Shown here in pieces: positions 7,773 to 20,859 of a stretch of DNA of 64,000 nt. Positions within the stretch are counted from its first letter, which is position 1. Each line of letters begins with the position of its first letter. The notes below the pieces were generated by a model. It had not been told where the DNA came from, did no database searches, and saw only the letters and a list, made by a program, of their open reading frames with translations. Source of the stretch: Acinetobacter sp. TGL-Y2 (GTDB lineage Bacteria; Pseudomonadota; Gammaproteobacteria; Pseudomonadales; Moraxellaceae); contig NZ_CP015110.1 in the NCBI RefSeq assembly GCF_001612555.1, forward strand, positions 2,604,001-2,668,000, in the 5' to 3' direction. A program made the position numbers and the translations under genes.

Positions 7773-8073
7773 TTATGCATGATTTAAATTATTAAAAAAA
7801 TTTGAATAAAATTTCTGTTCAATTTTATCAGCCTCTAAATAAATACCTAATTCATGATAGAGATCGTTATTCTTATAGTTACCTGAAGAATCAGAAGACA
7901 TCCAGTTTAAGCTTGTGACAACAATATGATTTTTATCCCAAGCCAACACTTTGGCATGGCTATGATTTCCAGAAGGTGGAGAATGAAGTTTTAATGCAAT
8001 TTTATCGTTATCTATACTGTTAGAAAACTTTTGCACTTGCTTATGATCAAAAATTTCTTTATCGACTGTAGAG
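7773..8073 (-). pseudogene. 3' remnant of a phospholipase-D-like (HKD) gene
   Basis: The minus-strand frame remains open from the IS edge at 8073 to the TAA at 7773 and encodes the C-terminal end of a PLD-superfamily protein. HSHAKVLAWD matches the H-x-K-x4-D catalytic motif, and IVVTSLNWMSSDS matches the strand and G/S-S-x-N-region that follows it. A GTG at 8036 is an accidental start; the true 5' part was removed at the IS junction. Bacterial PLD-like nucleases of this type occur in defence and helicase-associated systems, but the truncated piece does not show which. Confidence 0.7.
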
Positions 8074-9113
8074 GGCTTTGTTGCACAAAGCTGTTCTTAA
8101 AGGCATCTTCATCAATATAATTTCTAAATGAATAAGCCAACACCTAAAATCTATCGGACAACCAATTGGTCTTCCTATAATCGAGCCTTAATCAACCGAG
8201 GAAATATCTCCATTTGGTTTGATCCTAACACTCAATGGTATGCTCAGCCAAAAGGTAAACAAGGTCGAAATCAAACATATTCCGATACAGCTATTCAATG
8301 CTGCTTAATGATCAAATCCTTATTTCGACTCTCTTTACGTATGGTCACAGGCTTTGTCCAAAGCCTCATTAAACTTTGTAGATTAGGCTGGACCGCACCA
8401 GATTACTCTACCCTCTGCAGAAGACAAAAGCACATTGATATTGCGGTTAGTTACCAAAAGAGCCGTGATGGACTGCATCTACTTATAGACTCCACTGGCT
8501 TAAAGTTTCTAGGTGAAGGTGAATGGAAACGTAAGAAACATCAGCCTGAATACCGTCGCCAATGGCGTAAACTTCATATCGGTATAAATGCTGAAACCCT
8601 GCAAATACGTGCTGTTCAGCTCACGACGAACAATGTGAGTGACTCTCAGGTTCTTGGCAACTTGCTTGCTCAAATTCCATTGGATGAGCAGATTGACTCT
8701 GTCTATACAGATGGGGCTTATGACACGAAACACTGCTGACAAGTCATTTCAGATCGACAAGCGCATGCTGTGATTCCGCCAAGAAAGAATGCAAAGCCTT
8801 GGAAAGACAAACAAGCGAGGTCTATAGAGCGGAATGAGTTATTGAAAACAGTCAAAACGGCTAGGAAGAGCCCTTTGGAAAAAATGGTCCGGTTATCATC
8901 GTCGAAGTTTGGTAGAAACCAAGATGCATTGCATCAAATTATTGGGAGATAAATTAACGGCAAGGAGTTTCTCTAGTCAGGTGAATGAGATTCATGCACG
9001 TGTAGCAGTCTTGAATAAATTCACGGAATTAGGCCGCCCTCATACCCAAATTGTATCTTAAATTTGGATCCTTTGGGATAGCTCTGCCTCTCAAGCATTT
9101 GTGCAACAAAGCC
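8074..9113 (+). mobile_element. IS5-family, IS903-group element (IS17-like), copy 1
   Basis: A 1040-bp element with matching terminal inverted repeats GGCTTTGTTGCACAAA and TTTGTGCAACAAAGCC. The internal transposase is inactivated. The 9-bp flanks (left ACTGTAGAG, right GAGTAAAAG) are not a target duplication, so one side has been rearranged since insertion. A second copy, 1039 bp, lies in the same orientation at 18868-19906. Confidence 0.9.
8128..9061 (+). pseudogene. Inactivated IS5-family transposase, copy 1
   Basis: DDE transposase of the IS903 group. The reading frame runs from ATG 8128 through STLCRRQKHID and LLIDSTGLKFLGEGEW but meets a TGA at about 8737, where the aligned second copy reads a sense codon (AGA). 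A one-base insertion follows near 8855 (AAAACGG here, AAACGC in copy 2), which shifts the frame before the conserved C-terminal YHRRSLVETKMHCIKLLGD region. Translation past the stop resumes with VISDRQAHAVIPPRKNAK, so the inactivation is by point changes and not by loss of sequence. Confidence 0.9.
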
Positions 9114-9401
9114 GAGTAAAAGTGAAACATTAATATTTTTGGTAGTGCTAAAAACCAACGTGTAATAATTCATTTATATATTTTAATATCAATAACTTAT
9201 TATTTTTATCACGTCGTATTCATGCACTACCAAATTTTTATCTACTGCAAGACCAGGAATAGCAGCTGAAGTTTTGTCAAAACTTAAGATGAAAACATAG
9301 TTTTTTAATATACCCTCAAACATTTTGTATAATTCTGCTGCTTCTTTTATTGATGAGGAAATAGCAATTTCAGCTATAAGTTCTTTTAAGCCTAAATTCA
9401 T
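9114..9401 (-). pseudogene. Gene remnant interrupted by a MITE and cut by IS copy 1
   Basis: A minus-strand frame starts at ATG 9401 and encodes MNLGLKELIAEIAISSS... up to AVDKN, then runs into the 91-bp repeat at 9141-9231. Removing that repeat and one copy of its 8-bp target duplication rejoins the frame as VDKNINVSLLL, which continues until the IS edge at 9113. The original protein was therefore longer and has lost its C-terminus. No family is recognised. The apparent C-terminal residues VVHEYDVIKIISY are encoded by the repeat. Confidence 0.6.
9141..9231. mobile_element. MITE-like 91-bp element, copy 1
   Basis: Begins GGTAGTGC and ends GCACTACC; the terminal repeats extend imperfectly to about 22 bp, ending in a shared ACGTG. 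It is flanked by ATATTTTT and AAATTTTT, a target duplication with one mismatch. It is identical over its whole length to 18347-18437. It has no coding capacity, so it is a non-autonomous element. The 8-bp duplication and the GGTAGTGC end loosely resemble IS1-type termini, but the parent element is not in the window. Confidence 0.75.
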
Positions 9402-9565
9402 ATTAAATTATCTCTAAGGGTAAGTTTGTGCAATAAATCCATTATGATTTGTAAAGCTTTTAAAGTCATAACTTCTATCAGTATGTAAGATTTACGATTC
9501 AATTAAGTGTAATTTTGATTCAAGATCATGTGTAAACTTATTTCAGAACAGAAAAGTTCTATCAA

Positions 9566-9594
9566 AGAAAAAGCCTCACTTAAGTGTGAGGCCT
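9566..9594 (-). terminator. Terminator of the indC-tautomerase-MFS operon
   Basis: On the minus strand: GCCTCAC, ACTTAA, GTGAGGC, then TTTTTCTTT. It lies just after the MFS stop codon and closes the pigment operon. Confidence 0.75.
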
Positions 9595-9603
9595 TGTGAA
9601 CTT

Positions 9604-10821
9604 TTAAGCTCTATGGCCTATCTTAAAACCATGCTTCCTATTTTTAAATACTATAAAAATAGCAATTATTGATAGAATACTCATTGTTATTGTGAATGAA
9701 GATGGACCCACTTTCTGAAGTAAAATCCCCCCTAAAATCCCACCACTAGCAACTGCAAGGTTAAAAATGGTAACAAGCATTGCTTGTGCTATATCGGCTT
9801 CACTTCCAGCAGTATCTGCCATTGCTGTTTGAAGCAGTGTAGGTGCTCCACCAAATGACACACCCCACAATACAATGCCAGCTAATACAAACCAAGTTTG
9901 AGTTATATCGATGCCGATTAAAATAGCCGATAAAGCAAAGCCAAATAAGCTTATTATCGTAAGAGCACGTAAAGAACTATCGATAAAAGCACCTGTAACC
10001 CAAATTCCAAAAATTGATGAGATACCAAACAATAGAAGTATTAAGTCAAGTTTCGCACCTAGTCCAACATATGTTAAATATGGTGAAATAAAGGTGTAAA
10101 GTATATTGTGAGCAAATATCCATAAAAATATTACAGCTAATACTGAGCGAATACCCGGATGTAAAAATACATCTTTAACAGATGGTCTTTTTTCAACTTT
10201 TTGCCCAAGTATATTTGGAATAATCGTCTGAACCCATACCAATAAAAGTATAGCTAAGGCTGAAATTATCCAGAATACCCCTCTCCATCCTAAAAGACTC
10301 CCCAACCATGTTCCAAGTGGAACTCCCATGCATAAAGCAATAGGTTGCCCAACTCCAACAATTGCTAAAGCCTTTCCTTGTAGGTTTGGTGAAACTATAT
10401 TCCGAGCATATCCGGCAAGTAACCCCCAAATAATGCCTGCAGCCATTCCGGCAATTAACCTAGCTATTAGTATTACGGTATAACTAGAGGACAAGGCTGT
10501 TATCGTATTGAAAATTAGTAAACCAGCTATTGCAAATAAAAATAAAGGTTTACGTGACCAACTACGAGTTGAGGCGACAACAGGGATTGCAGCAATTACG
10601 GACCCTAATGCATACACTGAAATTAATTGCCCTGCATAAGCCTCCGATACATTTAAGTCTGAACTTATTAAGCTTAACAAGCCAGCTGGTATGGTTTCAG
10701 TCATAATGGTGATAAAACCAGCTAAAGCAAAGGCTAATAATTTTAATATTGGTAATTTCTCTTTACCATTCAAACTATTTTCTGCTCCACTACTTTCCAA
10801 AGTATTATTTTGAGTACTCAT
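9604..10821 (-). CDS. MFS efflux transporter (DHA1, AraJ/YdhP-like)
   Basis: A 405-residue integral membrane protein with a hydrophilic N-terminus (about 1-25) and about twelve hydrophobic segments. The motif-A-like loop between TM2 and TM3 reads STRSWSRKPLFL, and GKALAIVGVGQPIALCMGVPLGTWLG resembles the motif-C-type glycine-rich helix of drug-H+ antiporters. It is the last gene of a tight operon, nine bases after the tautomerase gene and terminated by the hairpin at 9566-9594. The context suggests export of the pigment, its precursor or a related toxic product; sugar or drug efflux is the family alternative. It is intact and visibly A/T-rich like the rest of the cluster. Confidence 0.85.
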   Translation of the reverse strand: MSTQNNTLESSGAENSLNGKEKLPILKLLAFALAGFITIMTETIPAGLLSLISSDLNVSEAYAGQLISVYALGSVIAAIPVVASTRSWSRKPLFLFAIAGLLIFNTITALSSSYTVILIARLIAGMAAGIIWGLLAGYARNIVSPNLQGKALAIVGVGQPIALCMGVPLGTWLGSLLGWRGVFWIISALAILLLVWVQTIIPNILGQKVEKRPSVKDVFLHPGIRSVLAVIFLWIFAHNILYTFISPYLTYVGLGAKLDLILLLFGISSIFGIWVTGAFIDSSLRALTIISLFGFALSAILIGIDITQTWFVLAGIVLWGVSFGGAPTLLQTAMADTAGSEADIAQAMLVTIFNLAVASGGILGGILLQKVGPSSFTITMSILSIIAIFIVFKNRKHGFKIGHRA

Positions 10822-10830
10822 TTAGCAATC

Positions 10831-11055
10831 CTAATAATTTGGAGATTTATGTAATAAATTTGCACGATTAAGAATCTCAGGTATATAAACTTTTTGATTC
10901 CATTCAGTTGCTTTGATTGGTTCAAGTGCAATGGAGATAGCACCAGCCTCACATTCAAAAATGCTTAAAAATACCTGAGAGATTCCCTCATTGATTTTTA
11001 GTAATTGATCATCCGTTAAAGGTTGTTCAAAATATTTAATGTTGATATGTGGCAT
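10831..11055 (-). CDS. 4-oxalocrotonate-tautomerase-family protein (PptA-like)
   Basis: A 74-residue protein that starts Met-Pro, so removal of Met exposes the N-terminal Pro that acts as the catalytic base in this superfamily. The beta-alpha-beta unit is visible: PHINIKYFE, helix QLLKINEGISQVFLSIF, then AISIALEPI. The YIPEIL segment near the end is also typical of the PptA-like group. It sits 11 bases after the synthetase and nine before the MFS gene, so it is part of the same transcript. A role in shuttling the imine/enamine or keto/enol forms of the pigment precursor is plausible but inferred. Confidence 0.8.
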   Translation of the reverse strand: MPHINIKYFEQPLTDDQLLKINEGISQVFLSIFECEAGAISIALEPIKATEWNQKVYIPEILNRANLLHKSPNY

Positions 11056-11066
11056 TAATTAATTCT

Positions 11067-14000
11067 CTAAGCTAATTTATTTTTTTGATTTTTAAAAACT
11101 TCAATTTCTTCGATTAGATCGATAATCTCATCAACACCATCTGGTTTTAAAATTTTGTAGTGATCTGTTAAAATATCTAGTACAAGTGGCTTTTCTGTTA
11201 AATGCTCTATGACTTGCTCAACAAATGAATAATCATCACCTACGGCTTTAAAAATAGTTATAGGCGCATTCACTTTATGTTCTAACATTTCTGTAAAGGT
11301 ATATTTAAACTCATATGTAAGTTCGACAATGTTAGAAATTTTTTGAATTAGGCCGCGATCTAGACCAGATAATTGATCAATAATTAATTCAATAAATTTA
11401 GCTTTGGTATCTATTTTTTCTAAAGTTTCAGCTATTTTATTATCGGGTAGTCTGCCTGCAAATACTGAATATAAAATCGATAAAAAAGCATCATCTGAAT
11501 AACAGTATTGTCCGTCTTCTTTAAAAGCTGCTGTTCTGATTTTTGGAGAACCTGGTGCGATCAATAGAAGATTATCTACAATATCCCCCATTGCTTCCAA
11601 CTGGTAAGCTACTTCAAATGCAACACGAGCTCCAAATGAATACCCCCATAGTGTATAGGGACCATGTGGCTGATGTTGCTTAAGCATTGCTACATCATTT
11701 TTTGCCATATCAGCGATAGATGAATAGGGTTCTTCACCATCATTAATACCAAATGCTTGAATACCCAAAAAAGATCTATTCCTTCCAATCTTAAAAGCAA
11801 GTGATCGAAGATTCATAGGATAGCCACCTAAACCTGGCCAACAATATATAGGACGCTTTAAATACTTCCCATTATTGAGATTAACAAGTCGAGAAGTTTG
11901 ATTTTGGGTTGTCTCATCTACTTTGATAGCTAAAGATTCAATAGTAGAGTTACTAAAAATAGTTTGAAGAGGAAGTTTGATATTTAGGGATTTATTAATA
12001 AAATGAATTATTGATACAGCTGACAATGAATCACCACCAATTTCAAAGAAATCATCCAAAATAGAAATCTCTTCTATCTCCATTACCTTTCTCCAAATAT
12101 CGGCAATTTTATTTTCTATGGTATTCCGTGGTAGAACTATATCTCGCTTAAGCTGCACGTACTTAATGTTCGCCTTCAATTGCTCGACATTGACTTTCCC
12201 ATTCGCAGTGAGGGGGATTTCATCAAGTATAACGATCTGACTAGGCACCATATAAGTTGGAAGTATATTTTCTAAATCTTGTTTTAATATCTCAGATGGA
12301 CCTTTTGCATGAATCGAATCTTCTTTCATACATTCGTTAAGCAGTTGTTTTTCACTAACGCCTCCAGCCAATGCAAAATATGAAGCATGGTGTTTTAACC
12401 CACTCTGACTTAGTAAATGCTCTAAGCGTTTAGCAGTTGCCAAATCATTTCCAGTTTTGGAGCTATATCCAGAAGACATCAAACCAATTCTTTGATCATT
12501 CATTTGTAATGTCTGTAAACTCCGTCCAAACTGAATATAATCATCCCATTTCGATTCATTTAATTTGACTATAGCGACCCCGAAACTTGCCTGCTCATAA
12601 GTTCTTTGATTGATTGCAATAACGTGTTTTTTTTGTATTACGTCTTCAGAATTTTTTTTTAATTTACCTTGATCATAATGATAAAGACCCTTTGGCAAAT
12701 CACTGACTGTATCTGCTTGAACAAAAAAATCTAAATTTGAATAATTATCAATATGTTCATATTGAATTAATGGGTAACTACCAAGATATTTATGTCCAGC
12801 TCCACAATATAGCGTATCCATGATTTCCGGGGCTAGAAAACCCGTTCCAACACCTAAGCCATATTCTGGTAATACATTATCTAATAGACCTAAAAGATGA
12901 CCAGCTTCCATTTCTAGCACTTCTATTACATTATTTTTATAGACAGCTTCGATGGCACTTTCTTTACCAACTAAATGAACAGTAATTTTTTCAAAATTAC
13001 TGTTCATTGTTAGTTTACTAATCTGTATCAGTTCATGAGATAGTGGATTAAAGTAATATATCCCTGCTTCAATACCATTTAAGCCCTCAATCTGTAGATA
13101 CATTTGATTTGCATACAATGCCCCAGGTGATGCATATGCATATTTTGGCAATAAACGTTCTTCACTGTAGAATGGTCCTAAATTCCTTAAAATCTCACCT
13201 AATAGATCTAAAGATATTTGTTGCGTTCCTATTAAGTTCTTATTTTTAATTTCGAAATTAAGTAAGTCAGTTATACATTTTTGACTAATTTCATCTCCCT
13301 CATAGAACCTATATGATTTTCGAGCAAATGCTCGAGAATGTTGTTTTTGATTAGCTTGTTTTCCTGAAAGTGGGATCGTTAAATTATCTAAATTATTAGT
13401 ATGGCGTATTCCTAGTTGGCTTAATTGAGCCTTTACTTGGGTACGACTAGTCTTAGAGAGATGATGATCGCCTTGATCCATAAGTATTGCTTCACGAGGA
13501 TTAAGTTCTATACAAGCAACTAAATTTTCAATGTGAGTATCATCATCTTTGTTGACAAAAACAGCAGCACTTTTAACCCAATCGTGGTTTTCGACAGCAA
13601 CTCGAATTTCATCTAGCTCTATCCGATGTCCACGTAATTTAATTTGATTGTCTGCACGACCAATAAACTGAATAGTGCCATCAGTATTTTTACTAACTAA
13701 GTCCCCAGTCTTATAAGCTCTTACTGTTTCTTGATTAATATTTATTGTAATAAAAGTTTCTGCAGTTTGTTCAGGTTTAGCTAAGTAACTGCGAGCAACT
13801 TGAAGACCAGAAATATATAATTCACCAATAGTATTGAAATCCTCTACCAAACTTCTATTTTCTTGGTCAAGAATATAGTAATGAGTATTGGAAACTGGAA
13901 AGCCAATTGACACTACTTTGGGAGATTTATCTAAATATTCTGAAGTTACAGTTAATGCGGAGCTATTGATTGTACACTCAGTTGGTCCGTATAAATTAAC

Positions 14001-14942
14001 AAGAATAGTTTCGGGCATTATATTGAGACAAGATCTAGCTAATTTTCTTGTTAAAGCCTCTCCTCCACTAAATATATAATTCAATGAATTACATTCTGTA
14101 AATTCAGGTTCACTGATTAATGCTTGAAGCAATGTAGGAACACACTGTAAAACGGTTACGTTATGTTTTTTTATGGTTTCAATCAGCGCAAACGGATCAC
14201 GATAAGCTCCTGGTGCAGCCATTACTACCGTTGCTCCTAGAACAACAGATAATAATTCCCACTGTGCCGCATCGAAACTCATTGGGGTTTTACGCAAAAT
14301 AATTTGTTGACTATTAATTTGATATACTGTGTTTAGCCAAAGCAGTTGATTAACTATGCTTTTATGCTGAATTTCTACTCCTTTAGGTCGGCCTGTCGTT
14401 CCTGATGTGTAAATTACATAAGCAAGTGATTCAGTGTCAGTAAACTGCTTTTCTTCGTTTATTTCACTATTAGTTGCTAAACTTTCTATTGTTAAAAAGA
14501 TTACATCTTTTAGACCAAGATTTTTCAGGGTTTTTAGAAAAATTGACTGTGTAAAAATAATTTTTAAACCTGAATCTTCAATCATGTAGCGAATACGATC
14601 TTCCGGATATTCTGGAGCTAAAGGCAGATATGAGCATCCTGCTTTAAGTATTCCAAATGTACCAACCATCATATCAATAGAGGGCTCTACATAAATTCCA
14701 ACACAACTTTCTTGTGTTACACCTTTTGCTATTAACGCCTGTGATACTAGGTTGCTTTGATCATCTAATTCCTTAAACGTTAAATTTCCATTTTCTGTTA
14801 TGACTCCTGTTTTTTGTGGAGTTAATCGCACTTGGATTTCAAATAAATCCATAACTGTTTTTGGGTATAACATATTAAGATTTTCATCTTTATAATCAAT
14901 ATTTAGGGAACTTTCTTGCTCTAGTAAAACTTTATTTGACAT
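11067..14942 (-). CDS. indC: Indigoidine-type NRPS (A-Ox-T-TE), BpsA/IndC-like
   Basis: Single-module nonribosomal peptide synthetase of 1291 residues, the length and order of blue-pigment synthetases that turn two L-glutamines into indigoidine. Adenylation domain about 25-480 with YVIYTSGTTGRPKG (A3), SFDAAQWE (A4), NLYGPTECT (A5), YKTGD (A7) and GRADNQIKLRGHRIELDE (A8). An FMN-type oxidase is inserted before A10, about 535-870, with KSYRFYEGD, YASPGALYANQMY, VYKNNVIEVLEME and MSSGYSSKTGN. A10 is LTANGKVN near 912. The carrier domain has DDFFEIGGDSLS with phosphopantetheine Ser972. The thioesterase has GYSFG (Ser1102) and His1261. All core residues are present. No phosphopantetheinyl transferase is in the window, so one elsewhere must activate it. 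Expressed from its own promoter region with a perfect palindrome 100 bases upstream. Confidence 0.93.
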   Translation of the reverse strand: MSNKVLLEQESSLNIDYKDENLNMLYPKTVMDLFEIQVRLTPQKTGVITENGNLTFKELDDQSNLVSQALIAKGVTQESCVGIYVEPSIDMMVGTFGILKAGCSYLPLAPEYPEDRIRYMIEDSGLKIIFTQSIFLKTLKNLGLKDVIFLTIESLATNSEINEEKQFTDTESLAYVIYTSGTTGRPKGVEIQHKSIVNQLLWLNTVYQINSQQIILRKTPMSFDAAQWELLSVVLGATVVMAAPGAYRDPFALIETIKKHNVTVLQCVPTLLQALISEPEFTECNSLNYIFSGGEALTRKLARSCLNIMPETILVNLYGPTECTINSSALTVTSEYLDKSPKVVSIGFPVSNTHYYILDQENRSLVEDFNTIGELYISGLQVARSYLAKPEQTAETFITININQETVRAYKTGDLVSKNTDGTIQFIGRADNQIKLRGHRIELDEIRVAVENHDWVKSAAVFVNKDDDTHIENLVACIELNPREAILMDQGDHHLSKTSRTQVKAQLSQLGIRHTNNLDNLTIPLSGKQANQKQHSRAFARKSYRFYEGDEISQKCITDLLNFEIKNKNLIGTQQISLDLLGEILRNLGPFYSEERLLPKYAYASPGALYANQMYLQIEGLNGIEAGIYYFNPLSHELIQISKLTMNSNFEKITVHLVGKESAIEAVYKNNVIEVLEMEAGHLLGLLDNVLPEYGLGVGTGFLAPEIMDTLYCGAGHKYLGSYPLIQYEHIDNYSNLDFFVQADTVSDLPKGLYHYDQGKLKKNSEDVIQKKHVIAINQRTYEQASFGVAIVKLNESKWDDYIQFGRSLQTLQMNDQRIGLMSSGYSSKTGNDLATAKRLEHLLSQSGLKHHASYFALAGGVSEKQLLNECMKEDSIHAKGPSEILKQDLENILPTYMVPSQIVILDEIPLTANGKVNVEQLKANIKYVQLKRDIVLPRNTIENKIADIWRKVMEIEEISILDDFFEIGGDSLSAVSIIHFINKSLNIKLPLQTIFSNSTIESLAIKVDETTQNQTSRLVNLNNGKYLKRPIYCWPGLGGYPMNLRSLAFKIGRNRSFLGIQAFGINDGEEPYSSIADMAKNDVAMLKQHQPHGPYTLWGYSFGARVAFEVAYQLEAMGDIVDNLLLIAPGSPKIRTAAFKEDGQYCYSDDAFLSILYSVFAGRLPDNKIAETLEKIDTKAKFIELIIDQLSGLDRGLIQKISNIVELTYEFKYTFTEMLEHKVNAPITIFKAVGDDYSFVEQVIEHLTEKPLVLDILTDHYKILKPDGVDEIIDLIEEIEVFKNQKNKLA

Positions 14943-15040
14943 AGGTATTGTTTCCTAATTTATTTTGTCAATTAATAATTGAATGACAAACACCGATACT
15001 TCCTATATTGGTAATATTTATGTTTGATAATTTCTACTTA

Positions 15041-15064
15041 GTACTGGAATGATCATTCCAGTAC
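15041..15064. promoter_or_regulatory. Perfect 24-bp palindrome: operator candidate for indC
   Basis: GTACTGGAATGA followed by its exact reverse complement, between the racemase-like gene and the synthetase, about 100 bases upstream of the indC start. Related sites occur at 16850-16873 (17 of 24 identical by eye) and 17575-17598 (14 of 24). The shared core is CTGGAA...TTCCA. The set fits operators of the cluster's own TetR regulator. Confidence 0.7.
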
Positions 15065-15076
15065 TTGGCAAAAAAA

Positions 15077-15826
15077 TTAGTGTCTCTCAAGTAAACTACC
15101 AAAATTACTTAAATTATCTTGAATTCCACTTTCGCGTAACGCATGCCAATATAAGACGACATTATTAGATATCACTGGCTTATTTAACCACTTTTCAGCA
15201 ATCATGGCAGCTCTAGCCATTGTCACATTCGTTCCAACTTGAACAATTGCCTCAACAGACTGCGTATCAACATCTTTAATTGCACTAAATATTTGTTGCT
15301 CAGTGATATGTGAAATACGTTCAGGACTAGCTCCCCCCAAACCTTTAATAGCTACAACATCATAGCCATTTTCAGTAAAAAAACGACTAACTGTATTATC
15401 ACCTACAGGTAAATAGGGTGTTAATACAGCAATACGCTTTATATTGCCTAATACATTCAAGGCCGCTTTATATGCATCTGGACTAGTTGTAATGGGGATA
15501 CCTTTACTCATAGACTCAAAAGACCCTACAGTCTTTTCATGACTACCGAATCCATCCCAATAACTTTCTGGAGATACCCCAACAATAATTCTATCTGGTT
15601 TACATGTAGCTAAACTTTCAATAGCAGCTTCAGTTGAAAGTCTGATATCTTTAATTACATTCTGGAAACCAGGCTGTTGTTCCATCAATCGATCTTTAAT
15701 CAACATTCTACTTGTATGATTAGTTACACCATAAGGACGTAATGCCTCAGTTTCAGGTTGCATAGAGGTATTTGTCGAGGGTAGGATTAAACCCATTTTT
15801 AAACGAAAACCTAGTGAAAAGCTCAT
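15077..15826 (-). CDS. Asp/Glu racemase / maleate isomerase-like protein
   Basis: A 249-residue protein of the aspartate/glutamate racemase superfamily, closest in pattern to maleate isomerase/arylmalonate decarboxylase: MGLILPSTNTSMQPE near the N-terminus, IIVGVSPESYWDG at about 80-92, RIAVLTPYLP at about 131-140 and IVQVGTNVTMAR at about 194-205. The two catalytic cysteines expected after the third strand and in the (C)TN motif are not there: the positions read V-S and G, and the only Cys is Cys75 in LATCKPDR. It may be a non-racemising member. It lies between the HIBADH-like gene and indC on the same strand. A role on glutamine, glutamate or the cyclic imide is speculative. Confidence 0.75.
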   Translation of the reverse strand: MSFSLGFRLKMGLILPSTNTSMQPETEALRPYGVTNHTSRMLIKDRLMEQQPGFQNVIKDIRLSTEAAIESLATCKPDRIIVGVSPESYWDGFGSHEKTVGSFESMSKGIPITTSPDAYKAALNVLGNIKRIAVLTPYLPVGDNTVSRFFTENGYDVVAIKGLGGASPERISHITEQQIFSAIKDVDTQSVEAIVQVGTNVTMARAAMIAEKWLNKPVISNNVVLYWHALRESGIQDNLSNFGSLLERH

Positions 15827-15901
15827 TAAAATCTCTCAAAGCCGATATATAATATCGGCATCATTTAAAAATATAATTATTAAAAAGATTGGTGCTTATT
15901 T

Positions 15902-16777
15902 TTATTTTGCGAAGTAAGTTGCTGCCATATCTTTATCACCATGTCCTGCATCTTGAGCTCGTTTGAAACGAGCTAAGCCAGCTTCAACACCATCAACTTT
16001 TACACCAGCTTTCTTAGATGCATCTATCACTAAATTAGCATCTTTGACAGCATTATCTAGTGAAAAGCTTGCGTCAAAATTTCCAGATAAAATTGCGGCT
16101 GACTTTAATTGAAAATACATATTATCCATTGGTCCACCTTTAACTACTTCAATGATATTAGCAGGATCTACATCAAGAGCCTCTGCGATTGATAATGCTT
16201 CTGCAATACCATGAGTCAGTGCAAAAGCCCAACTATTTAATGCAAGTTTAAGCTTACTGCTTTCGCCTGGTTTATCTGATACCCATACAGTTCGTTGACC
16301 AATCGCATCAAAGACACCCTGAGCAATATCTTTGTCCTCATTAGGACCTGAAGCAATAATAATTAATTTACCTTGCTCTGCTGGCCCTTTTGTACCTTGC
16401 ACTGGAGCATCGTAATACTTCAAACCATTGTCTAAAGCAAATTTCTCAAGTTCAGCATTACCTTCAATCCCAACTGTACTTGATTGGATCCAAATGGTCC
16501 CTTTTGCCAAAGCAGGCAAAGCTAATTTCATTGCATTTAGTACAGCTGGACCATCAGTAAGCATAGTCAAAACAATATCTGCACCACGAACCGCATCACT
16601 AGCATGTTCATAAACTGAAATATCAGAATCCAACAATGCTTTAGCTTTGTCTAAGCTACGATTCCAAGCTTTAACTTCAAAACCATTTTTTTGTAAGTTT
16701 CTTGCTATTGCAGCACCCATAACTCCAGTACCTAAAACTGCAACTGTCAAATCATTTACGTTTACCGGCTTGTTCAT
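15902..16777 (-). CDS. NAD(P)-dependent beta-hydroxyacid dehydrogenase-like enzyme
   Basis: A 291-residue member of the 6-phosphogluconate/3-hydroxyisobutyrate dehydrogenase superfamily, which also contains glyoxylate and imine reductases. Rossmann motif VLGTGVMGAAIARNL near the N-terminus, with AWNRS after the second strand suggesting NADP(H). The substrate loop is DAPVQGTKGPAEQGKL, and the catalytic Lys lies in SSKLKLALNSW, the spacing of GLYR1-type enzymes. The start at 16777 is chosen because GGAGG lies just upstream; a TTG 12 bases earlier overlaps that ribosome site. An operator-like dyad lies 73 bases upstream of the start. The substrate is unknown; reduction of a keto or imino shunt product of pigment synthesis would fit the context. 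Confidence 0.8.
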   Translation of the reverse strand: MNKPVNVNDLTVAVLGTGVMGAAIARNLQKNGFEVKAWNRSLDKAKALLDSDISVYEHASDAVRGADIVLTMLTDGPAVLNAMKLALPALAKGTIWIQSSTVGIEGNAELEKFALDNGLKYYDAPVQGTKGPAEQGKLIIIASGPNEDKDIAQGVFDAIGQRTVWVSDKPGESSKLKLALNSWAFALTHGIAEALSIAEALDVDPANIIEVVKGGPMDNMYFQLKSAAILSGNFDASFSLDNAVKDANLVIDASKKAGVKVDGVEAGLARFKRAQDAGHGDKDMAATYFAK

Positions 16778-16849
16778 TTTTACCTCCAATGTTTGTTAAA
16801 TATTAAAATTTGATTTAGATAAATTAAAAAAATATCTCCAATAAATACA

Positions 16850-16873
16850 CACCTGTAACGACCATTCCAATAC
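16850..16873. promoter_or_regulatory. Operator-like dyad before the HIBADH-like gene
   Basis: CACCTGTAACGA then CCATTCCAATAC; 17 of 24 positions match the palindrome at 15041-15064, and the downstream context (TACTT-GCAAAAAA) is also shared between the two sites. It is in the promoter region of the HIBADH-like gene, which it probably controls together with the racemase-like gene. Confidence 0.55.
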
Positions 16874-16983
16874 TTTGCAAAAAAAATTACATTTGTTAAG
16901 CAGTGAAAATTTGTGTCATTACCCAAGTATATATCTGAATATAAATATCATTCACATTCAGATATATACTCAAAATAAATTCT

Positions 16984-17565
16984 TTAAATTACACTTAGTG
17001 CAATTTCTACAATATCTTCTAAACGAGATGCTTGCTTTTCTTCCCCCGCACCTTTACTTACCACACGAATTCCTTGAATTGTACTAACAATAAAATGGGC
17101 TAAGGCGTCTGAATTTTTATTAGAATCGATTTCCCCGTTAGCTTGTCCACGTATTATTAAAGTACTAATAGCTCTTTCCATTCGCATTAAATTCTTGGCT
17201 ACTAATTCTGCAATACCTTGATCATGCCTCGCCATCTCTAGTGATGCATTCGCTACCATACAACCAATATTTTCAATATCATTTAGTTCCTCCGATACTA
17301 TTTTCATAAGTAAGCGGCGAATTAAATCTTTGGCAGTGCCTTCTTCCGATAAAAGGGCAATATTGCTAGCCGTTAATTTATAATATTGCTTCAAAGAAAA
17401 CTGATAGATGCCATGTTTACTACCAAAGGCATTGTAAATACTGCCACGACCAATACCAGTAGCGTCTACTAGATCCTGAATGCTAGTAGCAGCATAACCA
17501 CGTTGCCAAAAAACTTTCATAGCTAATTCGGCTATGGCTTCTAATTCAAACTCTTTAGGTCTCAT
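16984..17565 (-). CDS. TetR/AcrR-family transcriptional regulator
   Basis: A 193-residue regulator with an N-terminal TetR helix-turn-helix: AMKVFWQRGYAATSIQDLV then GIGRGSIYNAFGSKHGIYQ (about 15-55). The ligand domain contains ENIGCMVANASLEM, a cysteine-bearing segment common in one TetR subgroup that includes electrophile-responsive regulators such as NemR; sensing by that Cys is only a suggestion. It is divergent from ridA with 104 bases between them, and that gap holds an operator-like dyad (17575-17598). Similar dyads before the HIBADH-like gene and indC make it the probable cluster regulator. Confidence 0.88.
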   Translation of the reverse strand: MRPKEFELEAIAELAMKVFWQRGYAATSIQDLVDATGIGRGSIYNAFGSKHGIYQFSLKQYYKLTASNIALLSEEGTAKDLIRRLLMKIVSEELNDIENIGCMVANASLEMARHDQGIAELVAKNLMRMERAISTLIIRGQANGEIDSNKNSDALAHFIVSTIQGIRVVSKGAGEEKQASRLEDIVEIALSVI

Positions 17566-17574
17566 ATTAATCCA

Positions 17575-17598
17575 ATTCTGGAACAGTCGTTCAAATTA
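17575..17598. promoter_or_regulatory. Operator-like dyad in the tetR-ridA divergent promoter
   Basis: ATTCTGGAACAG then TCGTTCAAATTA, with the inner dyad GAAC-AGTC-GTTC. It matches the 15041-15064 palindrome at 14 of 24 positions, including CTGGAA and TTC. It starts ten bases upstream of the TetR start codon, as expected for an autoregulated TetR gene divergent from its target. Confidence 0.5.
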
Positions 17599-17669
17599 AT
17601 GTATCATTGCATTCGCTACAACGTCAATAGAATCTTTTACTAATCATTAAATATAAAACGGTAAATTAT

Positions 17670-18110
17670 ATGAATAAAATTACACGAATGGGTTCTGATC
17701 AAGCTCAATATGCCGAATCAATTACAATTCCAAGTAATGCTTCGTTAGTATATGTTAGTGGAATTCTTCCAAACATATACGACGACAACGCTGAACTTGG
17801 AAGTACTTATTCTTATGGTAATACCAAAGTTCAAGCCCATTCAGTCTTAACGAAAATACAGAATATTCTAGCGAAAAAAAATTTAAAAATGAAAGACATC
17901 ATTCAAATGCGTGTTTTTTTGGTAGGTATACCTGAACTTGATGGAAAACTTGATTTTAAAGGCTTTCAAGAAGCGTATGTAGAGTTCTTTCCAGAACACA
18001 ATGTGCAGACCAAGCCAACAAGAACAGCTGTTCAAGTTGTTTCACTGCCGCTTCCTGGTACTCTTGTAGAAATTGATGTGATTGCCTCTACAGTTATTGA
18101 TTTAATATAA
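17670..18110 (+). CDS. RidA/YjgF-family enamine/imine deaminase
   Basis: A 146-residue RidA-family protein. These trimeric enzymes hydrolyse reactive enamine/imine intermediates, such as 2-aminoacrylate, to ketones and ammonia. The family landmarks are present: LVYVSGILP, QAHSVLTKIQNILAKKNLKMKDIIQM-type helix, and PTRTAVQVVSLPLPG with the substrate-binding Arg, followed by VEIDVIAS. It is slightly longer than housekeeping RidA (about 128 residues) and belongs to the broader Rid group. It is the only plus-strand gene of the cluster, divergent from tetR. Its substrate may be the aminated pigment precursor or its imine; that is inference. Confidence 0.85.
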   Translation: MNKITRMGSDQAQYAESITIPSNASLVYVSGILPNIYDDNAELGSTYSYGNTKVQAHSVLTKIQNILAKKNLKMKDIIQMRVFLVGIPELDGKLDFKGFQEAYVEFFPEHNVQTKPTRTAVQVVSLPLPGTLVEIDVIASTVIDLI

Positions 18111-18113
18111 AAA

Positions 18114-18144
18114 AGTAGTCCCATATTAAGTATATGGGACTACT
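18114..18144 (+). terminator. Hairpin after the ridA-like gene
   Basis: AGTAGTCCCATAT, loop, ATATGGGACTACT: a 13-bp stem four bases after the stop codon. The T run is missing on the plus strand, so termination may be weak, while an A run upstream would give U residues to a minus-strand transcript. Confidence 0.55.
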
Positions 18145-18242
18145 AGACCTCTCGCACAAAATCATTTTTACTCATTTCCATATTGACATAATACGTTGCG
18201 CTGATGTGTCTGAGTTAACAGGATACTTTCACTTAGGAAACT

Positions 18243-18721
18243 CTAGGCAGCTAACTTATGAAAGCGCTCTATCATTTCATTTGGTATTTTAAATACCTAA
18301 TCCTTTTAAATTATTTAAAGATTATAAGATAGCTCAATATATTTTGGGTAGTGCTAAAAACCAACGTGTAATAATTCATTTATATATTTTAATATCAATA
18401 ACTTATTATTTTTATCACGTCGTATTCATGCACTACCATATTTTGTAATATCTGCTTTGGCTTCTTCCTTTGTTTTACAATTACAATGATGAAAAAATCA
18501 TTTTGAGTACGCCCCAGAAAATCTCAATTGGTACATTATCGTAATAATCACCCTTTTTACTCATTGAACTTTGAAAACAATACTTTTCAAACATACTTTG
18601 ATATTCATGACTGCAATATTGACTCCCTTAACTATTTCTGAAATATTGTCATTATTTTTTCGACCGTTTTTATTGTTTCAGTTTTAAATTCAGCTATATA
18701 AAATTTCGATTTTTTGCTCAT
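18243..18721 (-). pseudogene. IS3-family transposase remnant, internally deleted
   Basis: The minus strand starts like an IS3-family orfA (MSKKSKFYIAEFKTETIKT, with AGGAG upstream of the ATG at 18721) and soon joins the end of an orfB: CFQSSMSKKGDYYDNVPIEI then FWGVLK, the DD(35)E C-terminal block. After a one-base change the frame continues as HCNCKTKEEAKADITKY, is interrupted by the 91-bp MITE, and resumes as IELSYN, ending with ERFHKLAA and TAG at 18243. Most of the transposase between orfA and the orfB end is missing. The IS3 copy was therefore already inside this island when the MITE inserted. Confidence 0.75.
18347..18437. mobile_element. MITE-like 91-bp element, copy 2
   Basis: Identical to 9141-9231, with GGTAGTGC/GCACTACC ends. 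Here the target duplication is perfect: ATATTTTG at 18339-18346 and again at 18438-18445. Taking out the element and one duplication rejoins the IS3 orfB reading (DITKY + IELSYN), which confirms the element boundaries. Confidence 0.85.
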
Positions 18722-18867
18722 GGTAAACTCCTAATAAGCGTGCTTATTCTACCAAGTCTAGGTCTCAGTTTTTCTCGAAAAAAATCGTATTATAATATCT
18801 ACACGATTGATCTAGGCTTAGTTTTAAAATGTCCAATAAGTTATATAGCAAGATGTGAGTTTTACAC

Positions 18868-19906
18868 GGCTTTGTTGCACAAACCTACCATCGAAGGCTT
18901 ATTCAACAATATAATTTCCAAATGAATAAGCCTACACCTAAAATCTACCGTACAACGAATTGGTCTTCTTATAATCGAGCCTTAATAAATCGAGGAAATA
19001 TCTCGATTTGGTTTGATCCTACTACTCAATGGTATGCTCAGCTACAAGGTAAACAAGGGAGAAACCAAACTTATTCTGATACAGCTATTCAATGCTGTCT
19101 CATGATCAAATCTCTATTTCGACTCTCTTTACGCATGGTTACAGGTTTTGTTCAGAGCCTCATTAAACTCAGTGGGTTAGATTGGATAGCTCCGGATTAT
19201 TCCACCCTCTGTAGAAGGCAAAAGCATATTGATATTGCGATTAGCTATCAGAAAAGTAGTGATGGACTTCATCTACTTGTGGACTCTACGGGCTTGAAGT
19301 TTTTAGGTGAAGGCGAATGGAACCGCAAGAAACATTAGCCTGAATATCGTCGTCAATGGCGCAAACTCCATATCGGTATAGATGCTAAAACCCTGCAAAT
19401 AAGGGCTGTTCAGTTGACTACGAACAATGTCAGTGATTCGCAAGTACTTGGGGATTTACTTGATCAAATCCCACCAGATGAGAAAATTGATTCTTTCTAT
19501 ACAGATGGCGCTTATGACACAAAATACTGAAGACAAGTCATTTCAGATCGACAAGCACATGCGGTGATTCCGCCAAGAAAAAATGCGAAGCTCTGGAAAG
19601 ATAAAACTCTAAGATCTATACAGAGAAATGAATTATTGAAAACAGTCAAACGCCTAGGAAGAACCATTTGGAAAAAGTGGTCTGGGTATCACCGTCGAAG
19701 TTTGGTAGAAACCAAGATGCATTGCATTAAATTATTGGGCGATAAACTGGGTGCAAGAAATTTTCAAAGCCAAGTCAATGAGATTCATGCACGTGTAGCA
19801 GTCCTTAATAAATTCACTGAATTAGGTCGACCTCATACCCAAGTTGTCACTTAAATTTGAGGCGATATGGGAAACTTTAATTTTTAAATATTTGTGCAAC
19901 AAAGCC
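18868..19906 (+). mobile_element. IS5-family, IS903-group element (IS17-like), copy 2
   Basis: A 1039-bp element with the same terminal repeats as copy 1 and in the same orientation. The 9-bp flanks (GTTTTACAC and GTGATTGAT) do not match each other, nor do the outer flanks of the pair, so there is no direct sign of a recent composite transposition. The two copies differ at many silent and some coding positions. Confidence 0.9.
18922..19854 (+). pseudogene. Inactivated IS5-family transposase, copy 2
   Basis: The full-length frame (310 codons plus stop) is kept without frameshift but carries two nonsense codons: TAG after GEWNRKKH, where copy 1 has CAG, and TGA after GAYDTKY. The C-terminal region missing in copy 1 is readable here, ending HARVAVLNKFTELGRPHTQ. 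The lesions differ from those in copy 1, so the two copies decayed independently. Confidence 0.9.
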
Positions 19907-20346
19907 GTGATTGATAAAAGTTACTAATTGAAAGATATCCAATTGCACAGAATCCTTATGACTTAGCTTTAAAATATTCACTGGAGAGAATTCATAAATT
20001 CATGCAAGAGAGAAATCAGTCAAACAAAACCACTCACATCACAATTGAGAGTAGAGATAAAAAAGCAAATCAAAAACTAGAAAATGCCTTTAACCTTATA
20101 AAGAAGGGCGAAAATTGGAATCAAACACAATTCCAATTTGAAATCGAATTTATAAGTAAAAAGTCTAATTCTACTGGTTTACAAATTGCAGATTTAGTTG
20201 CAGAACCAATCAAATACCGGTTCATGAGACCTGAAAAAAATCATCAAAATTTCAAAAGCTTAGAGTCAAAATTTTATTGTAAAGGTGGTCGTCACTCTGT
20301 TGGTAAAAATTTCCTAGGCTATGGGTTAAAAGTTTTTCCCACATAA
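19907..20346 (+). pseudogene. DUF3800 gene remnant, 5' end lost at IS copy 2
   Basis: The 3' part of a DUF3800-family gene. Directly after the IS edge one frame reads VIDKSY, then a shift and a stop, and the second frame continues ERYPIAQNPYDLALKYSLER and onward through GLQIADLVAEPIKYRFM to TAA at 20346. An ATG at 20002 gives an apparent 114-residue ORF, but the family homology starts before it. DUF3800 proteins are found in mobile and defence-associated DNA and are RNase-H-like; the function is not established here. A terminator follows at once. Confidence 0.7.
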
Positions 20347-20385: not shown

Positions 20386-20859
20386 TTAAGCAGGAATACG
20401 AAGCACTTGCCCAGGATAGATGTCATCTGCATCTTTCAACAACGGACGGTTTGCTTCAAAAATTTTATTGTATTGATTCGCATCACCATAAAATTCTTTA
20501 GCTACTTTTGACAAATTATCGCCAGATTTAACCGTATAAAACTTACTTTCAGCTGAAGGCGTTGCCACCGTCAATTGATCATCCACTTTTGCAACATGAT
20601 CAACATTCCCTACAGCCAGAATAATCTTCTCACGATCCGCTTGTGTCTGTACTTGACCTTTAATGGTCGCAAGGTCTGAATCACCGTTATAACCGACAGA
20701 CAAGCCTGTTACAGGCAAACCTAAAGCTTTTACATGACCCAATAGTTTGTTTGCAACTTCTTGTGCAGATGGCTCAGTTGGTGTTGCAGGCGCTGCTTGT
20801 TGTTCCGCTGGTGCTGTATTTTTCTTGCCAATGCCTTTTACAAAATCAAAAAGACCCAT
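20386..20859 (-). CDS. kbp: BON-LysM protein, potassium-binding Kbp/YgaU-like
   Basis: A 157-residue protein with no clear signal peptide: N-terminal MGLFDFVKGIG, an Ala/Pro/Gln-rich linker, a BON domain (about 30-95, with LGLPVTGLSVGYNGDSDLATI) and a C-terminal LysM domain (about 106-156, FYTVKSGDNLSKVAKEFYG and YPGQVLRIPA). This architecture is that of E. coli Kbp (YgaU), a cytoplasmic K+ binding protein. It stands alone, with a terminator on its 3' side. It is the first intact conserved gene to the right of the island. Confidence 0.85.
   Translation of the reverse strand: MGLFDFVKGIGKKNTAPAEQQAAPATPTEPSAQEVANKLLGHVKALGLPVTGLSVGYNGDSDLATIKGQVQTQADREKIILAVGNVDHVAKVDDQLTVATPSAESKFYTVKSGDNLSKVAKEFYGDANQYNKIFEANRPLLKDADDIYPGQVLRIPA

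Follow-up and report, generated by a model that had tools for sequence, protein, structure and literature searches.

Which pathway do the genes around an indigoidine-type synthetase of Acinetobacter sp. TGL-Y2 belong to, and what might each of them contribute? The window analysed here is the whole stretch of 64,000 nucleotides at positions 2,604,001 to 2,668,000 of contig NZ_CP015110.1, and the cluster in question encodes the synthetase and six companions, including a regulator, an exporter and a divergently transcribed Rid-family protein. A sequence-only reading had taken the accessory genes for a branch hitherto unreported from known indigoidine loci. We find instead that the accessory set is the established igiR-B-C-D-F-E set, already described for Leisingera sp. 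Y4I/JC1. The interpretation that we favour, and regard as likely, is that of a horizontally acquired igi-type indigoidine cluster, to which a Rid3-type imine deaminase, probably under the same TetR regulator, has been added. The cluster is real, intact and of a described kind, in a host in which it is rare; its new element is the Rid gene, which is conserved, probably co-regulated and absent from the published igi gene lists consulted. An IgiC that, as aligned, appears to lack the catalytic residues implied by its labels is also new here.

An indigoidine synthetase of the igi kind

A GTDB scan for synthetase loci confirmed 423 places, from which we retained the best 80, and we aligned 83 synthetases (the window, these 80 loci and two whole-genome loci; L001 and L002, which duplicate the window and L003, were omitted from alignment and tree). 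The T-domain Ser 972 and the TE residues Ser 1102, Asp 1236 and His 1261 are identical in 83/83 rows, which bears out the earlier description of a 1291-residue A-Ox-T-TE synthetase with its core residues. Over its full length, the window protein can also be aligned with 13 A-Ox-T-TE synthetases chosen from 120 homologues among the matches listed. The Ox domain has no Pfam match and was located by alignment to other synthetases; of nine Ox positions inspected, five are invariant (83/83), two are kept in 82/83 rows, Asn 670 is kept in 75/83 and position 700 is variable. The A-domain code was read by laying the GrsA positions onto the core motifs. It is DAWQFGLINK in 70 of the 83 rows, the window and Leisingera JC1 among them, and the remaining 13 deviate at one position. 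We take this code to mean glutamine specificity. With Ox lying within A, the T serine, the TE triad and this presumably glutamine-type code, the 83-row alignment places the window protein among the A-Ox-T-TE indigoidine synthetases. Elsewhere the genome encodes a phosphopantetheinyl transferase (PPTase) of the ACPS family, 217 amino acids in length and the sole such match genome-wide, which is probably Sfp-like, to judge by its length.

Kinship was examined with a quick LG+G4 tree of the 83 rows, computed without bootstrap or outgroup and with BpsA, Dickeya IndC and Vogesella IgiD not among the rows. The window synthetase groups with that of Acinetobacter sp. A7.4 (Shimodaira–Hasegawa-like approximate likelihood-ratio test (SH-aLRT) 100), then with Pseudomonas rows (100) and then with Leisingera sp. 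JC1, Ciceribacter and Actinokineospora (99). All nine members of the clade that unites the window with JC1 are igi-type, and this clade and the shared A-domain code uphold the earlier claim of an indigoidine-type synthetase in Acinetobacter.

The window has igiB, igiC and igiD side by side, together with a TetR regulator. Loci at which igiB and igiC homologues adjoin the synthetase number 13, that is, the window and 12 of the best 80. In Gammaproteobacteria they are found in Acinetobacter sp. A7.4, Pseudomonas fulva, P. entomophila (two) and P. gingeri (L003–L007); the others are in Leisingera sp. JC1 (L069), Ciceribacter lividus, Actinokineospora diospyrosa, three Amycolatopsis and Streptomyces thermodiastaticus, so that igi loci span Gammaproteobacteria, Alphaproteobacteria and Actinomycetota. 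The igi label requires two changes on the tree, the second igi branch being formed by Amycolatopsis and S. thermodiastaticus; a warning from the tree software that long igi branches come together (L009 with L081 and one more) leaves the placement of L009 unsure. An extra scan at E 1e-150 found the synthetase in 3 of 390 Pseudomonadales genomes and 1 of 369 Gammaproteobacteria genomes, with the own genome counted in both; the two additional loci cluster with Zooshikella and are non-igi.

The Leisingera JC1 locus has the same gene order as the window, R-B-C-D-F-E. Table 2 of PMC5014874 lists igiR as a TetR regulator, igiB as a hydroxyisobutyrate dehydrogenase, igiC as an arylmalonate decarboxylase, igiD as a peptide synthetase, igiF as a 4-oxalocrotonate tautomerase and igiE as CynX. 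Identity between window and JC1 is 46% for D, 53% for C, 47% for B, 40% for R and 41% for F, and the A-domain code and catalytic residues are identical. The two differ in their chromosomal setting, and JC1 has no rid match in the approximately 1.4 kb covered upstream of igiR. Closest to the window in the tree are L003–L007, the A7.4 and Pseudomonas loci, all five of which have rid, R, B, C, D and an MFS gene. For JC1 the product was described as indigoidine by liquid chromatography–mass spectrometry (available text of PMC5014874), and by analogy the product of the window cluster is probably indigoidine.

Genes of the ind type are missing. A genome-wide search found nothing that matches IndA (PF04227), and no IndB (HAD phosphatase) was found by Pfam among the seven cluster genes, the part of the genome searched for it; the earlier statement that neither is present therefore holds for IndA genome-wide and for IndB within the cluster. 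With the L028 protein (PF04227) as query, an IndA-like gene was found at 0 of 13 igi loci versus 41 of 70 other loci (Fisher p 8e-5, a value that ignores kinship and unequal locus lengths), and 29 of the 70 non-igi loci have neither IndA nor the igi type within the DNA examined. The ind-type locus of Streptomyces lavendulae CCM 3239 (L028) shares an A-Ox-T-TE synthetase with the window (code DAWQFGVINK), but it has an IndA gene, has no igiB or igiC match and lies in a different part of the tree.

A recurrent palindrome

A palindrome of the form TGGAAYGATCRTTCCA is found in three gaps of the cluster, between rid and igiR, igiR and igiB, and igiC and igiD. Across the 3.69-Mb genome, only the igiC–igiD palindrome matches this degenerate pattern exactly; the other two gaps hold near copies of its 16-base core, TGGAATGATCATTCCA. 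At three or fewer mismatches the pattern gives 26 sites in 12 of the 13 igi loci (261 kb) versus 11 in 68 non-igi loci (1471 kb), none of the 11 with two or fewer mismatches; the pattern was derived from the igi loci themselves, which tells against the comparison, and use of the window core alone removes part of that circularity. At two or fewer mismatches, that core is found seven times among the 12 other igi loci (246 kb), in five of them, and not once in the 68 non-igi loci (1471 kb). All six rid–igiR gaps contain a site with at most three mismatches. The palindrome is likely to be an IgiR operator, for which a literature search, judged by titles and term counts, found no earlier report among the papers listed; if IgiR binds the copy in the rid–igiR gap, rid would belong to the igi regulon.

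A Rid3-like partner in Gammaproteobacteria

A tblastn search for Rid relatives (E up to 1e-3) across the 80 GTDB loci matched only L003–L007, with no match at the other 75. The gene is thus present at 6 of 13 igi loci, which are all six of those in Gammaproteobacteria, and at none of the remaining seven, and it is divergent from igiR in 6/6. The nearest solved chains to the window protein are 9bka (PSPTO3006, E 1.5e-37) and 9bkc (PFL1385, E 6.1e-33). The Arg of its PTRTA motif, equivalent to Arg-105 of RidA and the mark of deaminating Rid subfamilies, is present in all six igi-linked Rid proteins and aligned with PARTA and PARTT of the two solved chains. PSPTO_3006 and PFL_1385 are placed in subfamily Rid3 in the available text of PMC5619798; after these nearest solved sequences the window protein is tentatively called Rid3-like. 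Table 4 of that paper reports that in vitro the semicarbazone signal of the L-Gln imine falls from 18 to 0 with PSPTO_3006 and to 1 with PFL_1385. An iminoglutamine-consuming type of Rid adjoins a glutaminyl-dehydrogenating enzyme, which suggests, by analogy with these relatives, that Rid may scavenge stray dehydroglutamine imine. Rid, with relatives active on a suitable imine, is a testable partner of the igi pathway. Among the open-licence PMC papers listed, none was found that describes an igi locus with a Rid gene; in one match for indigoidine and RidA, the RidA-family gene sits in a polyketide cluster. The 'detoxification' role proposed in the sequence-only reading may be right for Rid, the sole extra gene; the other accessory genes were already described.

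IgiC without the expected cysteines

IgiC falls in PF17645 (Amdase), scoring 53.1 bits where 25.9 is the cut-off, so the superfamily named in the sequence-only reading, Asp/Glu racemase-like, was right, but the catalytic cysteines are missing from the alignment. Solved members of PF17645 have a Cys at a C-terminal site, at which deposited sequence pairs differ (4fq5/4fq7 and 2xed/2xec), as would be expected for variants of a catalytic residue; we take the Cys residues of these relatives to be catalytic. At this site IgiC reads QVGTN, with Q, G, T and N kept in 121/121 sequences (the window and 120 homologues, the best 120 of 6722). HMMER puts the Cys of the relatives at IgiC G198 or T199/N200, depending on the chain, and none of these is Cys. 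The segment IIVGVSPES, aligned with the N-terminal Cys, has no Cys in 13/13 igi loci. As far as sequence alignment can tell, IgiC therefore has the catalytic Cys in neither half. Among its other cysteines, C75 is kept in 115/121 sequences and 13/13 igi loci; position 79 is Cys in 38/121 and 4/13, and Arg in the window. IgiC has been labelled glutamate racemase (PMC3826127) and arylmalonate decarboxylase (PMC5014874) in the available parts of the two papers; because the residues at the catalytic Cys sites do not fit, these labels should not be taken as the activity of IgiC.

IgiB, tautomerase and exporter

IgiB has the NAD(P) fold of the beta-hydroxyacid dehydrogenases, and its motif [ST]-[KR]-L-K-L, which is kept in 13/13 igi loci, carries their Lys, presumably the catalytic residue. 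The APV-S-G-[TS] of its two best solved relatives becomes APV-Q-G-T in the window. An imine reductase role was considered and seems less likely, as the best solved matches belong to the beta-hydroxyacid dehydrogenases and the Lys is retained. Earlier work, by context on Phaeobacter Y4I, is cited in the available text of PMC12826045 as tying igiB and igiC to pigment production.

The tautomerase scores below threshold (Pfam, 17.7 versus 22 bits; NCBIfam PptA, 62.5 versus 83), aligns across all 74 residues with tautomerases adjoining or fused to other synthetases and has a Pro immediately after its Met. Free or fused, a tautomerase is found at 8 of 13 igi loci. As a C-terminal fusion, PF01361 occurs in 7 of 120 synthetase homologues among the matches listed and in the L009 synthetase open reading frame (ORF); a tautomerase domain of such synthetases has also been described (PMC5818174; MinA in PMC8724604, both in part). 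Identity of the window exporter is 62–72% in L003–L007 and approximately 56% in L009, L060 and L076.

Proposed pathway and alternatives

We infer the following roles for the regulator, B, C, E, F and Rid. IgiD, primed by the Sfp-like PPTase, would adenylate and load L-Gln; Ox would oxidise the Calpha–Cbeta bond, and TE would cyclise and release a monomer that oxidises to blue indigoidine. IgiF may accelerate imine–enamine tautomerisation of the monomer, and IgiE would export product or monomer. IgiB and IgiC would work on the monomer or a precursor, at a step left undefined in the available text of the published igi work. IgiR would bind the palindromes that precede igiB and igiD and the one in the rid–igiR gap, and the Rid3 protein would hydrolyse dehydroglutamine imine that escapes the synthetase, protecting the cell from a reactive imine.

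Several observations weigh against this interpretation. The product is taken by analogy from published relatives, and the window, A7.4 and Pseudomonas loci are represented here by their genes. The window exporter and the JC1 MFS protein are both MFS_1 and yet do not match at E 1e-3, so the exporter does not qualify as an igiE orthologue. No tautomerase was found at 5 of 13 igi loci (L004, L005, L007, L068 and L074), among them those of P. fulva and P. entomophila, and L004, L005 and L007 differ from the window in this. When the window core is loosened the contrast fades, to 8 versus 2 sites at three mismatches and 19 versus 21 at four (12 versus 68 loci). Within the window alone three matches are unsurprising (mean 1.06; at least three in 10 of 100 shuffles), and genome-wide there are 66 places with three or fewer mismatches versus 16 for the reversed pattern. 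The L009 igi locus has no site within three mismatches, and the L081 site at 17299, counted among the 26, is distant from its cluster. Activity on the Gln imine is not specific to Rid3, as all seven Rid proteins lower the signal (PMC5619798, Table 4), and the available text of that work mentions no igi cluster for PSPTO_3006 or PFL_1385.

For indigoidine itself, one synthetase and a PPTase are enough in BpsA. If the synthetase suffices, the conserved B and C must serve another purpose, and the cluster could then make indigoidine in modified form or a colourless derivative of the aminopyridinedione, with IgiB and IgiC (and Rid) tailoring the monomer and indigoidine a by-product. The adjoining of B and C to the synthetase on two separate tree branches fits this, as does the counting of igiC among three 'indigoidine modification genes' in the available text of PMC5014874. 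Yet the enriched extract of JC1, which has the same B and C, is described there as 91.1% indigoidine (ordinary extract, 0.8%), and most Vogesella strains with igi genes are reported as indigoidine makers, with two that are not (PMC12826045, in part); we consider tailoring unlikely. A more elaborate version, in which a Cys-free IgiC and IgiB would act on the aminopyridinedione monomer beside a co-regulated Rid3 imine-to-keto branch, giving an end product that is partly not indigoidine, is speculative and doubtful.

The cluster might also be a silent or decaying island, its intact genes unexpressed between broken insertion sequence (IS) copies. Stop codons interrupt the two flanking transposase frames, the cluster is rare in the genus, and certain indigoidine loci are described as silent under standard laboratory conditions (PMC12826045, in part); against this stand seven open frames, intact catalytic residues and the palindromes, and we judge it rather improbable. 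An accessory branch new to indigoidine loci could still appeal to the unmatched IndA and to the Rid gene missing from the published igi lists consulted, but R, B, C, F and E reproduce the published set and its order (PMC5014874, Table 2) and igiB and igiC are common to all 13 loci across three major bacterial groups, which makes it very hard to sustain. The set called unusual is corrected to an established one and the published IgiC labels are found unfit for its residues; the proposed operator sequence, the Rid partner and the IndA-free igi split provide testable leads on the pathway.

Locus layout and genomic setting

The seven genes, their coordinates and the gaps of 11 bases between synthetase and tautomerase and 9 bases between tautomerase and MFS gene are all as the sequence-only reading gave them, and all seven reading frames are open. 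The TTG start of igiB is the first in its ORF; an ATG four codons downstream is equally possible. Directly 3′ of the igiR stop, an AT-rich inverted repeat (16926–16970; 21-nucleotide arms, 90% complementary) is perhaps the igiR terminator.

Table 1 Features of the igi-type cluster in the window
Feature	Position	Strand	Remarks
MFS exporter, igiE position	9604–10821	-	PF07690 (MFS_1), E 5e-42
igiF-like tautomerase, 74 aa	10831–11055	-	NCBIfam PptA model E 4e-17, under its cut-off
igiD, A-Ox-T-TE synthetase, 1291 aa	11067–14942	-	Pfam AMP-binding, PP-binding, Thioesterase; Ox by alignment
Inverted repeat with perfect 26-bp palindrome	15031–15074	.	igiC–igiD gap; core 15045–15060 TGGAATGATCATTCCA; proposed IgiR operator
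igiC, Asp/Glu-racemase superfamily (AMDase/maleate-isomerase family)	15077–15826	-	PF17645; catalytic cysteines absent by alignment
igiB, beta-hydroxyacid-dehydrogenase family (HIBADH-type)	15902–16789	-	NAD_binding_2/11; TTG or ATG start
Proposed operator no. 2	16854–16869	.	igiR–igiB gap; 2 mismatches
igiR, TetR-family regulator	16984–17565	-	TetR_N PF00440, E 6e-13
Proposed operator no. 3	17579–17594	.	Gap of divergent igiR and rid; 3 mismatches
rid, Rid3-like imine/enamine deaminase	17670–18110	+	Ribonuc_L-PSP PF01042, E 3e-19; divergent from igiR

Within the genus, two genomes out of 175 carry the cluster, the own genome included. GC content is 0.31–0.36 in the ten 1-kb bins from 9001 to 19000 versus 0.39–0.46 in 17 of the 20 other bins of the first 30 kb, and neighbouring genes differ between the two Acinetobacter clusters. 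Rarity in the genus, low GC and different neighbours together point to horizontal acquisition. No megablast match of window positions 9100–18460 was found in PLSDB, from which records very near this genome have possibly been left out. An empty site was sought in 19-kb stretches of four relatives; nrdB was not found in any of these stretches, so that no insertion site could be delimited.

Two IS-like copies flank the cluster (8069–9114 and 18863–19907). They lie in the same direction, are 81–87% alike over the compared stretches and are IS5-like by eye. A 106-bp repeat with ends GGTAGTGC...GCACTACC, resembling a miniature inverted-repeat transposable element in appearance, occurs at 9133–9238 and 18339–18444 (98% alike) and has 25 near-identical copies and one weak reverse match in the genome. 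Transfer as a composite transposon was rejected, as both transposase frames are broken and copies of the 106-bp repeat are scattered over the chromosome. On the lysM side, DNA matches start at approximately window position 20345 in three of four relatives and at 20386 in the fourth. Between the IS-like copy and lysM lies a DUF3800-type ORF (20002–20346; PF12686, profile positions 83–148 of 149), which is possibly a fragment.

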